This document shows, piece by piece, positions 2,992 through 10,042 of a stretch of 14,218 bases of DNA. The position numbers and the translations under genes were made by a program. The DNA is taken from NCBI GenBank assembly GCA_002686955.1, contig NYZA01000044.1, positions 1-14,218 on the forward strand, given 5' to 3'. The DNA comes from Gemmatimonadota bacterium (lineage in GTDB: Bacteria > GCA-2686955). Below the pieces are notes generated by a model that saw only the letters and a program-made list of their open reading frames with translations, was not told the origin of the DNA and ran no database searches. The stretch's first letter is position 1. The number at the start of each line of letters is the position of its first letter.

Positions 2992-5046
2992 ATGCAGCCA
3001 GAATCCACTCCATCCCAGCCGAAAATCCGACCGCCGACCGAGCTGAATCCCCGGCGAGACGCTCCGCTGGATTTCCCTGATCGACAATACGGCGAGATGA
3101 CTCCGGCCGACTATCGTGAATTGGGGTTCATGGCGGGGCTCGAGGTCCATCAACAGCTGCGAACGAAAAGCAAGCTCTTCTGCCGCTGCCCCGCCGGGCG
3201 CTATGTGGACCACTTCGATGCGGAGGTGCTGCGTCACATGCGCCCCACTCTCTCGGAGCTCGGTGAGTACGACGGTTGCGCTTTGATGGAGTTCAAAACG
3301 AAGAAAGAGATCGTCTATCTCTTGGAACGCGGAACCGTCTGCACCTATGAGATCGACGACACCCCTCCATTCGAAATCGACGCAACGGCGGTGAAGATCG
3401 GGATCGAGATCTGCTCCCTCTTCAAATTGAATCTGGTTTCCGAGCTGCACGTGATGCGCAAACAGTACCTCGACGGGTCGATTCCGACGGGTTTCCAACG
3501 CACGGCCATGCTGGGGCTGACCGGCGAGATTCCCTTCGTCGTTCCCTCTCTCGGTGTGGATCGCGAACTACGAATCAGACAGCTCTCGCTCGAAGAAGAT
3601 TCATGTCGTGAAGTATCGGACTTCGGCCACCGCATCGTCTTCCGCACCGATCGGCTGGGAATGCCGCTGACGGAGATCGTGACCGAGCCCGACATGGTCA
3701 CTCCGGAAGAACTGGAGGCTGGCGCTCGCGTGATCGCGCAACTGACTCGAACCACGAATAAAGTTCGACGCGGCGCCGGCGCAGCCCGCCAGGACGTCAA
3801 CGTGTCGATCGCCGGTGGTCGCCGAGTCGAGATCAAAGGTGTCGATCGCCATCGAGGCTTGCCGAGACTGGTACACATCGAGGGGTTTCGGCAACTCGGT
3901 CTCTTGCGAATCCGTGACGAATTGGATCGCCGTGGCGTCGAGAAGGAGACACTCGAGCTCCCTTCGAATGGGTTGGCGTGGAATATGTCGGACCTGGCGA
4001 TCGAGGCAACGGCTTCTCTTCGCCGCTGCGACTTCGCGCCGATCCGTCATGCGCTCGAACAGGGAGAAGTGATCTGCGCTCTCAAACTTCCGGCTTTTGC
4101 CGGAATCTTGACGCATCGCACCCAGCCTGGGATCACCTTCGCCAGCGAGCTGGCCGATCGCGTACGGGTCATCGCCTGCATCACCTCCCGCCCCTTCATG
4201 ATCCACTCCGATATCGAAGGGTATGGGCTGAACCACTCCGAGTGGCGCCAACTCAGGGCCGCTCTTCGGGCCACCGAAGACGACGCGATCATCGTTTTGT
4301 GGGGCTCGGCGACCGATGCCAACACTGCCACGCGGGAGATCCTAATTCGCGCTCAACAGGCGCTCGTGGGAGTGCCCGCGGAGACCCGGCAGGCCCATCG
4401 CGACGGGAGGACCGGATTCGAACGGATCCTGCCGGGCGCGGACCGCATGTACCCCGACACCGACACTCCACCCCTACCGATTCCCGACTCCTGGGTGCGA
4501 GAGGTCACCGCCCGACTTCCCGAACCCCCCTGGGAACGGGCGGAACGCTACGCCGCTCTTGGCCTGGAACCGCTTCTGGCCACACGCCTCGCCACCTCCA
4601 CGTGGGCGAGTCTTTTCGAGGCCATCGGGCCGACCGAGGGCGCAGCGGCCCGATTGCTCGCGTTCACGTTGGAAAAACGGATCCCGTATTTGCGGCGCAA
4701 GTCAGGGCTCGATCGGCTTCCGGAGCCGGCCAGACTGAAACCACTACAGAGCGCCTTCGAGCAGGGCGAGATCCGCCGGGAGGGGTTCGAAGCCGCCTTC
4801 GATCGACTACTCATCGAGGCCGACCGAGAGACCGGCCAGATCCTCGAAAAGTATCGAGTGGGGCTGAGCGACGCGCAGGAGCTCGATCAGTTGCTTGCCT
4901 GGACCACGATCGGAGCGCGTCGCATGGAAGGCGAGCCGCAAGAGAAGATCTTGCGATGGTCCATGGGGCAAGTCATGCCCAAGCTGCTCGGCCGCCTCGA
5001 CCCGAAGCTGGTTCGCGAGCGACTGCTCGAAACCATCGAAAGCTGA
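2992..5046 (+). CDS. gatE: Glu-tRNA(Gln) amidotransferase subunit E (archaeal type)
   Basis: Role: binds Glu-tRNA(Gln), phosphorylates the glutamyl group with ATP and amidates it with ammonia from GatD. Seen: 684 residues with a GatB/GatE catalytic fold: MAGLEVHQQL (47-56), SKLFCRCP (60-67), RKQYLDGSIPTGFQRT (156-171), LEEDSCR (200-206), EIVTEPDM (228-235), and RRGAGAARQDVNVSI (259-273) followed by EIKGV. An inserted domain at about 361-496, ending in PGADRMYPDTDTPP, corresponds to the AspRS-like GAD domain that separates GatE from GatB. A helical YqeY-like tail follows (about 551-681). Start: the frame is open from 2890. ATG 2992 adds a proline-rich leader, while ATG 3097 (649 residues) fits the family length of roughly 620-640 better; both lack a well-spaced ribosome site. 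gatD follows after 3 bases. Odd: GatDE is considered an archaeal enzyme, whereas the neighbours are bacterial. Identity is firm because of the GAD domain and the adjacent gatD. Confidence 0.93.
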   Translation: MQPESTPSQPKIRPPTELNPRRDAPLDFPDRQYGEMTPADYRELGFMAGLEVHQQLRTKSKLFCRCPAGRYVDHFDAEVLRHMRPTLSELGEYDGCALMEFKTKKEIVYLLERGTVCTYEIDDTPPFEIDATAVKIGIEICSLFKLNLVSELHVMRKQYLDGSIPTGFQRTAMLGLTGEIPFVVPSLGVDRELRIRQLSLEEDSCREVSDFGHRIVFRTDRLGMPLTEIVTEPDMVTPEELEAGARVIAQLTRTTNKVRRGAGAARQDVNVSIAGGRRVEIKGVDRHRGLPRLVHIEGFRQLGLLRIRDELDRRGVEKETLELPSNGLAWNMSDLAIEATASLRRCDFAPIRHALEQGEVICALKLPAFAGILTHRTQPGITFASELADRVRVIACITSRPFMIHSDIEGYGLNHSEWRQLRAALRATEDDAIIVLWGSATDANTATREILIRAQQALVGVPAETRQAHRDGRTGFERILPGADRMYPDTDTPPLPIPDSWVREVTARLPEPPWERAERYAALGLEPLLATRLATSTWASLFEAIGPTEGAAARLLAFTLEKRIPYLRRKSGLDRLPEPARLKPLQSAFEQGEIRREGFEAAFDRLLIEADRETGQILEKYRVGLSDAQELDQLLAWTTIGARRMEGEPQEKILRWSMGQVMPKLLGRLDPKLVRERLLETIES

Positions 5047-5049
5047 ACG

Positions 5050-6438
5050 ATGGCTCCAAACAGCGACAACGGATATCGCGACCCCTGTCTGAGCGTCATG
5101 GAGAGGTTCGGAATCACGGTCTGGTGTGAAGTCATCGCGCGAACGACGCGTGGTGATTTCGAGGGGCTCGTTCTTCCGCGCTCCGAGACCGCGGACGCGG
5201 AGCATCTCGTACTCAAGCTCGGCACCGGGTACAACGTCGGATTGCGTCACGACACCATCCTCGGCATCGAAAAGATCGGCTACAGGGAGGCGAAATACAA
5301 GATCCCGGAAAAGGAGTTCCCGATCGACGACAAGAAACCGACGGTGAAGCTCTTCGGCACGGGGGGAACGATCGCCTCCCGCCTGGACTATCGCACCGGT
5401 GCGGTCATTCCGGCTTTCAGCCCCGGGGAGCTCTACGGTTCGGTTCCCGAGTTGGCCGATGTGTGCAATCTCGAAACGGTGAAGCTCTTCGGCGTCTTCT
5501 CGGAAAATATGGGACCTGAGCAGTACCTTGTGCTCGCCGAAGAGACCGGTGCGGCAATTCGCGAAGGTTACGACGGCGTCGTGATCGGACATGGGACCGA
5601 TACGATGCACCATACCGCCGCGGCGTTGAGCTTCATGGTGCAGCGACCTCCGGTGCCGATCGTCATGGTGGGAAGCCAACGATCATCGGATCGTCCCTCC
5701 TCCGATGCGGCACGGAATCTAATCAGTGCCACCTGGGCTGCCGCGCACGGAGAGATCGCCGAGACGATGGTCTGCATGTTCGGCCCTACTTCGGATCGGT
5801 ACAATCTGCTGCATCGTGGCACGCGTGTGCGCAAGATGCACAGTTCCTATCGCAGCACTTTTCGCACACTCGGTGATTTGCCTCTGGCTATGGTGGAACA
5901 GGGGAAGATCACGCCGATCAAAAAGGACTTCGCGACGCGTCGTAGTGATAGAGATGTCGAGATCAATGCCGTATTCGACGAGAAAGTGTCACTTGTCTAC
6001 TACTATCCGAATATGCAGGCAAACGTGATCGATGGGTTGATCGATGCCGGCTACAAAGGAATCATCATCGCCGGTACGGGTCTGGGCCACGTCAATCGCC
6101 TCCTCTATCCCGCCCTGGAGCGAGCCCGCGACGCGGGGGTTCTGATCTTCATGACCCTGCAGACGCTGTGGGGATTCGTCCAGATGTATGTCTATGAAAC
6201 CGGCCGGGAGATCATGGAGCTGGGGGTGGTCCCGCTGGCCAACATGCTCCCCGAGGTGGCCTATGTGAAGCTGGCGTGGGCATTGGGGATGCACCCGGAC
6301 GACCCGCGGGCCGTGGGGGAGCTGATGAGTCGACCTGTCGCCGGAGAGATGACCGAGCGGGAACCTCACGACGGGTACCTGGTCTTTCAGGGTGGCGTGC
6401 CGGAGATCAAGGGATTCCTGGGTCGGGTCTGGAAGTAG
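5050..6438 (+). CDS. gatD: Glu-tRNA(Gln) amidotransferase subunit D (archaeal type)
   Basis: Role: the asparaginase-like subunit that hydrolyses Gln or Asn and feeds ammonia to GatE. Seen: 462 residues. The first 95 or so form the small N-terminal domain specific to GatD (GYNVGLRHDTILGIEKIG at 60-77), which plain L-asparaginases lack. The type I asparaginase domain follows, with GTGGTIAS (103-110), GHGTDTM (180-186) and GSQRSSDRPSSDA (208-220). The four catalytic residues expected for the family are present: Thr104, Thr183, Asp184 and Lys262. The ATG lies 3 bases after the gatE stop, so the two are co-transcribed and probably translationally coupled; an internal ATG at residue 16 is a less likely start. 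Alternative: an ordinary cytoplasmic asparaginase, made unlikely by the N-terminal domain and by gatE. Confidence 0.94.
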   Translation: MAPNSDNGYRDPCLSVMERFGITVWCEVIARTTRGDFEGLVLPRSETADAEHLVLKLGTGYNVGLRHDTILGIEKIGYREAKYKIPEKEFPIDDKKPTVKLFGTGGTIASRLDYRTGAVIPAFSPGELYGSVPELADVCNLETVKLFGVFSENMGPEQYLVLAEETGAAIREGYDGVVIGHGTDTMHHTAAALSFMVQRPPVPIVMVGSQRSSDRPSSDAARNLISATWAAAHGEIAETMVCMFGPTSDRYNLLHRGTRVRKMHSSYRSTFRTLGDLPLAMVEQGKITPIKKDFATRRSDRDVEINAVFDEKVSLVYYYPNMQANVIDGLIDAGYKGIIIAGTGLGHVNRLLYPALERARDAGVLIFMTLQTLWGFVQMYVYETGREIMELGVVPLANMLPEVAYVKLAWALGMHPDDPRAVGELMSRPVAGEMTEREPHDGYLVFQGGVPEIKGFLGRVWK

Positions 6439-8255: not shown

Positions 8256-9746
8256 CTATTCAGCCGCGCCTTGATCCGCGCTCCCGTCAGGCCACGAAGA
8301 CAGTCTCTCCGCTGCATCTCGGCAGCTCGGAGTCGCCGCCGCCGCGCGCGCTACATCGAAGACCAAGTCGTCTCCCAGGCGGGGTCCCATGATCTGCAAT
8401 CCGATCGGCAAGCCGCGCGCATGTCCAGCGGGAATCGAGATCGCGGGGAGGCCGGCGAGATTGGCCGCCACGGTGTAGGTGTCGGATAGATACATCGCGA
8501 GAGGATCTTGCAGACGCTCCCCCAGCTCGAAGGGCAAGGTCGGCGTCGTGGGCCCAACGAGAACATCTACCGCCGCAAAGGCACGGGCGAGCTCTTCCCC
8601 CATTCGGTGGCGCATTCCTGACGCCTGCCCGTAGAAGGCATCGTGATAACCAGCCGAGAGAGCAAAGGTCCCCAACATGATCCGTCGTTTGACTTCATCG
8701 CCAAAGCCGGCGGTTCGGGTGGCGCGGATCATCGCATCGGCGCTCGGCTCTCCCTCGATTCGCGCGCCGAACCGCACTCCGTCGAAACGTGACAGATTCG
8801 ATGAAGCCTCCGCGGCGGAGATCAGGTAGTACACCGGAATCGATGCATCGAGTAAAGGAATATCGAGCTCGATGATCTCGGCGCCGTCTCGTGCCAGCTC
8901 CCCCAAAACCGTCAGAATCAAGTTTTCGATCACAGGGTCGAGACCTGCTTGGAAGAACTCCCTCGGAACCCCAATCCGCGGTCCGCCATCCTCCATCCCC
9001 GGATCGTGTCTCCCGCCCCGCGCTTCTCCCTCCAAGCAGGTGGCATCCTTTTGATCGGGACCACTGATCGCTTCAAAAAGCATCTCGACGTCATCCACGT
9101 TTGTCGCTATCGGTCCAATCTGGTCCAGGCTCGATCCGAAGGCGACCAATCCGAAACGGCTCACCATTCCGTAGGTCGACTTGAAGCCGACCACGCCACA
9201 GAAGGCAGCGGGCTGCCGGATCGAGCCGCCGGTATCCGACCCGAGTGCGATCGGCACCATGCCGGCGGCTACCGCCGCTGCCGAGCCACCACTCGACCCC
9301 CCAGATGTTCGTTCCCGATCCCATGGATTCCGCGTCGGACCATGGCATGAGTGCTCCGTCGAAGAGCCCATCCCGAATTCGTCCAGATTCGTCTTTCCGA
9401 TGATGATGCACCCGGCCTCGCGGGCTCTGCGCACCGCCGTCGCGGTATATCGTGAGATGTGACCATCCAGGATCCGGCTTCCGCAGGAGGTCGGCAGCCC
9501 TTCGATGCAGATATTGTCTTTCACCGCAATCGGCACACCTGCCAGCGGCGGAACCGCGCGACCTGAATCTCGGCGCGAATCGATCTCCTCCGCCGCGCGA
9601 AGTGCCCCGGCCTCGTCTACGTGCACAAACGCCGAAATCGTACGATCCAGACGCGCTATCGTCTCGAGAGAGAGTTCCACGCACGAGCGAGCGCTCCGCT
9701 CACCGAGACGCACCGCGCGCGCCATCTCCCGCGCCGTCTCTCTCAT
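8256..9746 (-). CDS. gatA: Asp/Glu-tRNA amidotransferase subunit A
   Basis: Role: the amidase subunit of GatCAB; it releases ammonia from glutamine for transamidation of Glu-tRNA(Gln) and/or Asp-tRNA(Asn). Seen: 496 residues, near the usual 485. The amidase-signature triad is intact: Lys76 in AVKDN, cis-Ser151 in TSGGSSGGSAAAVAAG, and nucleophile Ser175 in GSDTGGSIRQPA. GFKSTYGMVSRFG and SSLDQIGP follow, as in true GatA. The ATG overlaps the gatC stop by four bases (ATGA), which points to translational coupling. The gene normally next in line, gatB, is absent: downstream is a gap of about 200 bases and the convergent O-antigen-ligase-like gene. A small inverted repeat, CGGCT/AGCCG (8253-8266), spans the stop codon but lacks a U-tract. 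Confidence 0.96.
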   Translation of the reverse strand: MRETAREMARAVRLGERSARSCVELSLETIARLDRTISAFVHVDEAGALRAAEEIDSRRDSGRAVPPLAGVPIAVKDNICIEGLPTSCGSRILDGHISRYTATAVRRAREAGCIIIGKTNLDEFGMGSSTEHSCHGPTRNPWDRERTSGGSSGGSAAAVAAGMVPIALGSDTGGSIRQPAAFCGVVGFKSTYGMVSRFGLVAFGSSLDQIGPIATNVDDVEMLFEAISGPDQKDATCLEGEARGGRHDPGMEDGGPRIGVPREFFQAGLDPVIENLILTVLGELARDGAEIIELDIPLLDASIPVYYLISAAEASSNLSRFDGVRFGARIEGEPSADAMIRATRTAGFGDEVKRRIMLGTFALSAGYHDAFYGQASGMRHRMGEELARAFAAVDVLVGPTTPTLPFELGERLQDPLAMYLSDTYTVAANLAGLPAISIPAGHARGLPIGLQIMGPRLGDDLVFDVARAAAATPSCRDAAERLSSWPDGSADQGAAE

Positions 9747-10036
9747 CGCCCTTGGATTGTAGGCGGCACCCTGAAATGGCCCCGCGCCGATGCCGGGGAA
9801 CCGAGAGTTCCGCTCTCATTCGGCAGGGCCGGATCGGGGTCATCTTCCCGCTCGACTCGACAGCCCCCCTCGGTCCCGATCTCGGGCTCTTCGTGCCCCG
9901 CTGACCAGGTGCCCAGGGTCTCGAAATGGGTCAGAATCTCGCGCAATTCGACCGCTAAGCCCCCCACTTGGTCGTCGTTGAGAGTGAGCCCAGCCAACCT
10001 CGCGACGTGACGCACGAGCGCTGGATCTACGTTCAT
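9743..10036 (-). CDS. gatC: Asp/Glu-tRNA amidotransferase subunit C
   Basis: Role: a small non-catalytic subunit that wraps around GatA and GatB and stabilises GatCAB. Seen: 97 residues, the usual size. The N-terminal helix VRHVARLAGLTLNDDQ and the helix ELREILTHFETL match GatC. The C-terminal part has an acidic stretch and ends with the family's FRVP signature before the stop. The ATG lies 6 bases after the stop of the pcrA-like helicase gene, and its own stop overlaps gatA. Known: pcrA, gatC, gatA and gatB lie in one neighbourhood in Firmicutes such as Bacillus, so the pcrA-gatC-gatA order looks ancestral. Confidence 0.92.
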   Translation of the reverse strand: MNVDPALVRHVARLAGLTLNDDQVGGLAVELREILTHFETLGTWSAGHEEPEIGTEGGCRVEREDDPDPALPNESGTLGSPASARGHFRVPPTIQGR

Positions 10037-10042
10037 TGTGGG

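Follow-up and report, generated by a model that had tools for sequence, protein, structure and literature searches.

A bacterial GatDE gene pair from a second, GlnRS-associated clade of the tRNA-dependent amidotransferase

The amidotransferase GatDE, known structurally from Pyrococcus abyssi (1ZQ1) and Methanothermobacter thermautotrophicus (2D6F), is exclusively archaeal according to two published reviews. In the review literature, arguments about the last universal common ancestor draw on its supposed absence from bacteria, and GatDE is offered as the reason why archaea lack GlnRS. One review holds that GlnRS is missing from every known archaeon. The tRNA(Gln) substrates reported for archaeal GatDE carry A1:U72 and A73 (PMC9499178). 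The bacterial Asp-tRNA(Asn)/Glu-tRNA(Gln) amidotransferase GatCAB performs the same chemistry, and its GatB subunit shares the cradle and YqeY tail with GatE; the two enzymes differ in that GatD is an asparaginase-type glutaminase whereas GatA is an amidase, and in the GAD domain of GatE. Deinococcus, Thermus and Bdellovibrio are reported to retain GatCAB although they have both GlnRS and AsnRS (PMC4206432). No description of a bacterial GatDE was apparent in the open-access literature naming GatDE. Annotated bacterial copies may nevertheless sit undiscussed in databases, since the NCBI models for the two families already assign the names GatD and GatE to genes of this kind.

In this work the window, a 14,218-nucleotide stretch of DNA from contig C44 of a draft Gemmatimonadota genome (G000, GCA_002686955.1), was analysed. 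The original prediction, made from the sequence alone, had placed an adjacent and intact gatE and gatD in it, the former with a GAD insertion and the latter with its own N-terminal domain and a full Thr/Thr/Asp/Lys set. The genes of two amidotransferases are present in the window:

2992..5046, + strand: gatE (GatE2), 684 aa, with a cradle/amidation domain, a GAD insertion and a helical and YqeY tail
5050..6438, + strand: gatD (GatD2), a GatD_N domain followed by an asparaginase-type glutaminase with Thr/Thr/Asp/Lys
8256..9746, - strand: gatA of GatCAB (TIGR00132, 557 bits, cut-off 481.1), not part of GatDE
9747..10042 (approximate limits), - strand: gatC of GatCAB (TIGR00135, 33.2 bits, E 5e-8, below the cut-off of 47.1)

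Each element of that prediction was recovered at the GatDE locus. GatE exceeded the cut-offs of both NCBIfam gatE_arch (TIGR00134; 434.7 bits against 319.6) and NF003107 (506.1 against 456), and GatD that of gatD_arch (TIGR02153; 479.6 against 324), scores that exclude a chance match for either gene. By Pfam, GatE contains GatB_N, a GAD insertion and a YqeY tail, while GatD contains GatD_N (39.9 bits, cut-off 25.7), Asparaginase and Asparaginase_C. Against the GatB model of GatCAB (TIGR00133) the window GatE reached 112 bits, below the cut-off of 314.8, and so falls outside GatB. When the AlphaFold model of GatE (pLDDT 87.4) was compared with the PDB, the top matches were GatE chains, those of 1zq1 and 2d6f. 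Both genes lie on one strand, with three bases between the gatE stop and the gatD start. Position 2992 is the best choice of start for gatE, given that close relatives share residues encoded between it and the next Met ('...DLNPR...LDFPD...'). The pair has the same subunits, domains and catalytic residues as the P. abyssi and M. thermautotrophicus enzymes, with identities to the two structures of 36% for GatE and 45-47% for GatD.

The source genome is a draft of 270 contigs and is 84.5% complete, and a chimeric contig had been named as a possible refutation. That the contig is chimeric or carries contaminant archaeal DNA is hardly credible: in GC, GC3 and codon usage, gatE and gatD match gatA, pcrA, glnS and gltX of the same genome, and the closest homologues, at about 60% (GatE) and 78-80% (GatD) identity, come from other, independently assembled bacteria. 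The genome itself bears bacterial signs, with sigma-70, gatCA and bacterial GluRS and GlnRS, and together with the family scores these uphold a true GatDE in a bacterium. Divergently upstream of gatE lie genes for NapG/NapH-like multi-cluster ferredoxin proteins (85-1930, - strand), adjoined by a geranylgeranyl-reductase-like flavoprotein gene, likewise divergent, from 1818 to about 2830.

The prediction had set GatDE against bacteria that use GatCAB or GlnRS, a contrast that does not apply to this genome, which has all three. The gatC-gatA pair, not mentioned in that prediction, lies 2-4 kb downstream of gatED, and the gatB of the genome lies in two pieces, one at an end of contig C222 and one at an end of C224, which looks like a break in the assembly and not like a pseudogene. 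GlnRS is full-length (701.6 bits by profile, about 726 bits against a GlnRS from the PDB) with intact HIGH and SKRKL signature motifs, and this sets the bacterium apart from hosts that lack GlnRS and have canonical archaeal GatDE as their sole source of Gln-tRNA(Gln). With GatCAB genes and a full GlnRS also present, the cell need not depend on GatDE alone for its Gln-tRNA. AsnRS was not found in the 84.5% complete genome, and given this and the full GlnRS, a plausible division of labour is that GatCAB provides Asn-tRNA and GlnRS provides Gln-tRNA.

Two tRNA(Gln) genes were found in the same incomplete genome, with UUG and CUG anticodons, and both carry U1:A72 and G73 in place of the A1:U72 and A73 of canonical archaeal GatDE substrates, which counts against a Glu-tRNA(Gln) role. 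The four tRNA genes examined (two Gln, two Glu) encode CCA, a further bacterial sign. D-loops are 7 nt in tRNA(Gln) and 8-9 nt in tRNA(Glu), and amidotransferase tails use the D-loop shape difference between these tRNAs (PMC4810234), a point in favour of that role. The GluRS of the source genome keeps Arg at the position of Thermus thermophilus GluRS Arg358. We take this position to be a site of discrimination against tRNA(Gln), in which case little Glu-tRNA(Gln) may be made; this is a weak indication, as M. tuberculosis GluRS has Arg there too.

Trees of GatE and GatD, proposed as a check with the original prediction, placed the bacterial sequences together within one of two deep clades. In the unrooted GatE tree all 56 bacteria formed a single clade, joined by 10 Thermoplasmatota copies in a deep clade II (here labelled GatDE2), while clade I held P. 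abyssi, M. thermautotrophicus and most Thermoplasmatota, that is, canonical archaeal GatDE. Rooting with GatB under a mixture model kept the clades separate, each with support of 100/99, and nested the bacteria (100/96) among the archaeal clade II copies. The source GatE belongs to clade II and does not group with the P. abyssi and M. thermautotrophicus enzymes. An unrooted GatD tree recovered the same bacterial clade with the same archaeal copies closest to it, although the clade I part of the GatD tree is poorly resolved and long-branched. The node placing archaea G051 and G065 nearest to the bacteria is weak (89/53), so their sister position is tentative. Archaeal sampling covered Thermoplasmatota and the two structures, which limits how closely the donor lineage can be named. 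Clades I and II behave as paralogues, since archaea G071 and G080 each possess a GatE from both. In the two archaea with GlnRS and both GatE clades (L144, L137), the canonical GatD has a branch of great length (1.35-1.6), suggestive of relaxation. Judged from these sequences, gatE-gatD represents, in a bacterium, a second GatDE clade that is associated with GlnRS. The clade probably originated in Thermoplasmatota-like archaea or close to them, with a single entry into bacteria and a patchy spread thereafter.

A GatD scan of 84,980 species genomes yielded at least 577 relatives. The best 80 of these, examined as loci, comprised 79 labelled bacterial and one from a Thermoplasmata archaeon. The bacterial loci among them spanned more than a dozen phyla, with record labels, given as submitters' names of which some may be wrong, of Gemmatimonadota, Krumholzibacteriota, Planctomycetota, Myxococcota, Calditrichota, Latescibacterota, Zixibacteria, Fermentibacterota, Cloacimonadota, Aminicenantes, Acidobacteriota, Ignavibacteria, Bacteroidota, KSB1, Eisenbacteria and Bipolaricaulota. 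The view of GatDE as restricted to archaea is thus what the reviews state, but the enzyme is in fact found across many bacterial phyla. Prevalence is patchy, at 39/149 (26%) in the Ignavibacteria class and 5/121 (4%) in Gemmatimonadota (class of G042 and phylum of G004, respectively, by submitter label), and GatE was not found in one other genome of the source phylum that is 83% complete. The choice originally posed, between transfer from archaea and a settled bacterial trait, dissolves: entry from an archaeal-like GatDE2 lineage appears to have occurred once and the spread is wide and patchy, so that this is no isolated transfer.

In the suggested search for shared synteny, 68 of the 69 loci holding both genes had gatE immediately followed by gatD on the same strand, an order that differs from Thermoplasmatota clade I, where gatD mostly precedes gatE. 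No other conserved neighbour of gatED was seen with a crude gene caller. One of 80 loci (L035, a Planctomycetota MAG) has glnS just upstream of gatE-gatD, and the GlnRS of that MAG (L197/L035) appears to bear a YqeY-like C-terminal domain. No GatE relatives were found among viral contigs. A plasmid search returned one long archaeal match, the other matches being weak and short and several of them annotated gatB; the long match is an unannotated gatE on Natrinema thermotolerans plasmid CP031304 (L159:3001-4859), its frame broken over two reading frames.

GlnRS accompanies GatDE2 in 44 of 50 bacterial hosts, made up of 40 of the 49 sampled genomes over cut-off, three fragments (G002, G015, G044) and the source genome. 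Three of the six hosts without it (G016, G029, G039) lacked a match even to GluRS, suggesting missing sequence. AsnRS was present in 51 of 60 hosts, leaving GatDE2 unsupported as a maker of Asn-tRNA, and GatB exceeded its cut-off in 21 of 51 genomes examined. GatDE2 hosts thus resemble Deinococcus, Thermus and Bdellovibrio in that an amidotransferase coexists with a direct synthetase; in those bacteria, however, the enzyme is GatCAB, whereas GatDE2 hosts mostly have AsnRS and GlnRS and often lack GatCAB. Across 60 Thermoplasmatota, GlnRS occurred in 9 of 10 clade II hosts against 6 of 50 others (Fisher p 3e-6, relatedness ignored). Placed on a GluRS tree, this archaeal association reduces to three lineages, a number too small to reach significance in a test that takes phylogeny into account. 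Within Gemmatimonadota, GlnRS was found in all five carriers (two as fragments) against 76 of 116 non-carriers, a difference that is not significant (p 0.17).

The 15 of 60 Thermoplasmatota with GlnRS over the curated cut-off (L160-L174; L157:8217-10251) form one clade, and at most of their GlnRS loci a tRNA-Gln or tRNA-Glu gene flanks the synthetase gene. Archaeon G051 has an extra tRNA-Gln(CTG) directly downstream of gatE2 (L138:3423-3496), which differs from the glnS-linked CTG copy in a D-loop one base longer and in T-stem changes. A tRNA(Gln) beside gatE2 as dedicated substrate was considered and dropped, as the arrangement was seen in this one archaeon only.

All 82 clade II rows and all 24 clade I rows carry the GatD Thr/Thr/Asp/Lys tetrad. 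The Mg2+/ATP ligands of yeast GatB (E34, H36, E156, E186, T189, N230 and S232; PMC4027206) have conserved counterparts in the GatE cradle. From this sequence evidence it can be strongly inferred that GatDE2 is an active amidotransferase. The clades are fixed for different residues at about 16 columns of GatE, the majority of which fall within residues 83-184, near the amidation motifs. In the cradle, the canonical CLVEADEEPP, RKxVIDGSNTxGFQRT and LEEDAAR become CTYE.DDTPPF, RKQYLDGSIPTGFQRT and LEED[AS]CRE, respectively, in GatDE2. The GatB state at fixed columns is matched by clade II in two and by clade I in two, and this even split makes the direction of change unreadable.

The differences near the amidation motifs could reflect another substrate, and GatDE2 might then be a glutamine-dependent amidotransferase acting on another aminoacyl-tRNA, a tRNA-like molecule or a small molecule. 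The concentration of fixed differences in the cradle would fit such a switch, as would the presence of GlnRS in almost all hosts and of AsnRS in most, but GatDE2 retains the catalytic residues as well as the GAD insertion and the YqeY tail, and no conserved neighbour genes hint at another pathway; a changed substrate is therefore considered rather unlikely. That GatDE makes the Gln-tRNA(Gln) of the source bacterium as it does in archaea is less probable still. GatD and GatE do pass the equivalog cut-offs, but this reading must contend with a full-length GlnRS with intact motifs alongside GatCAB, with tRNA(Gln) of bacterial identity and with a sequence outside the canonical clade. A redundant pair in the course of being lost would account for the patchy distribution, including the low prevalence in Gemmatimonadota and Ignavibacteria and the second source-phylum genome in which GatE was not found. 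Selection is nonetheless implied by catalytic residues invariant over many phyla and by the lasting gatE-gatD linkage, and a remnant or neutral passenger is very improbable.

We give an even chance to the reading that gatE-gatD encodes a bacterial GatDE2, of a clade distinct from the canonical archaeal enzyme, with an accessory role in converting Glu-tRNA(Gln) to Gln-tRNA(Gln) as repair or back-up. An accessory role is the most likely one since GlnRS already supplies Gln-tRNA(Gln), and our best guess from the sequences is that Glu-tRNA(Gln) is what GatDE2 repairs or backs up. In this accessory role, GluRS would charge tRNA(Gln) to give Glu-tRNA(Gln), which GatE2 would bind as a glutamylated tRNA. 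GatD2 would release ammonia from glutamine, and GatE2 would phosphorylate the side-chain carboxyl with ATP and then amidate it, yielding Gln-tRNA(Gln). For the family as a whole, it is tentatively proposed that GatDE2 is an undescribed amidotransferase clade of many bacterial phyla and GlnRS-bearing archaea, with a function tied to cells that already have GlnRS, be it Glu-tRNA(Gln) repair or a new substrate.

GatDE is thus found in many bacterial phyla, and one GatDE clade coexists with GlnRS in both domains. Two questions become testable as a result: what job an enzyme of the indirect pathway performs in a cell that also has the direct enzyme, and whether GatDE and GlnRS are truly mutually exclusive.
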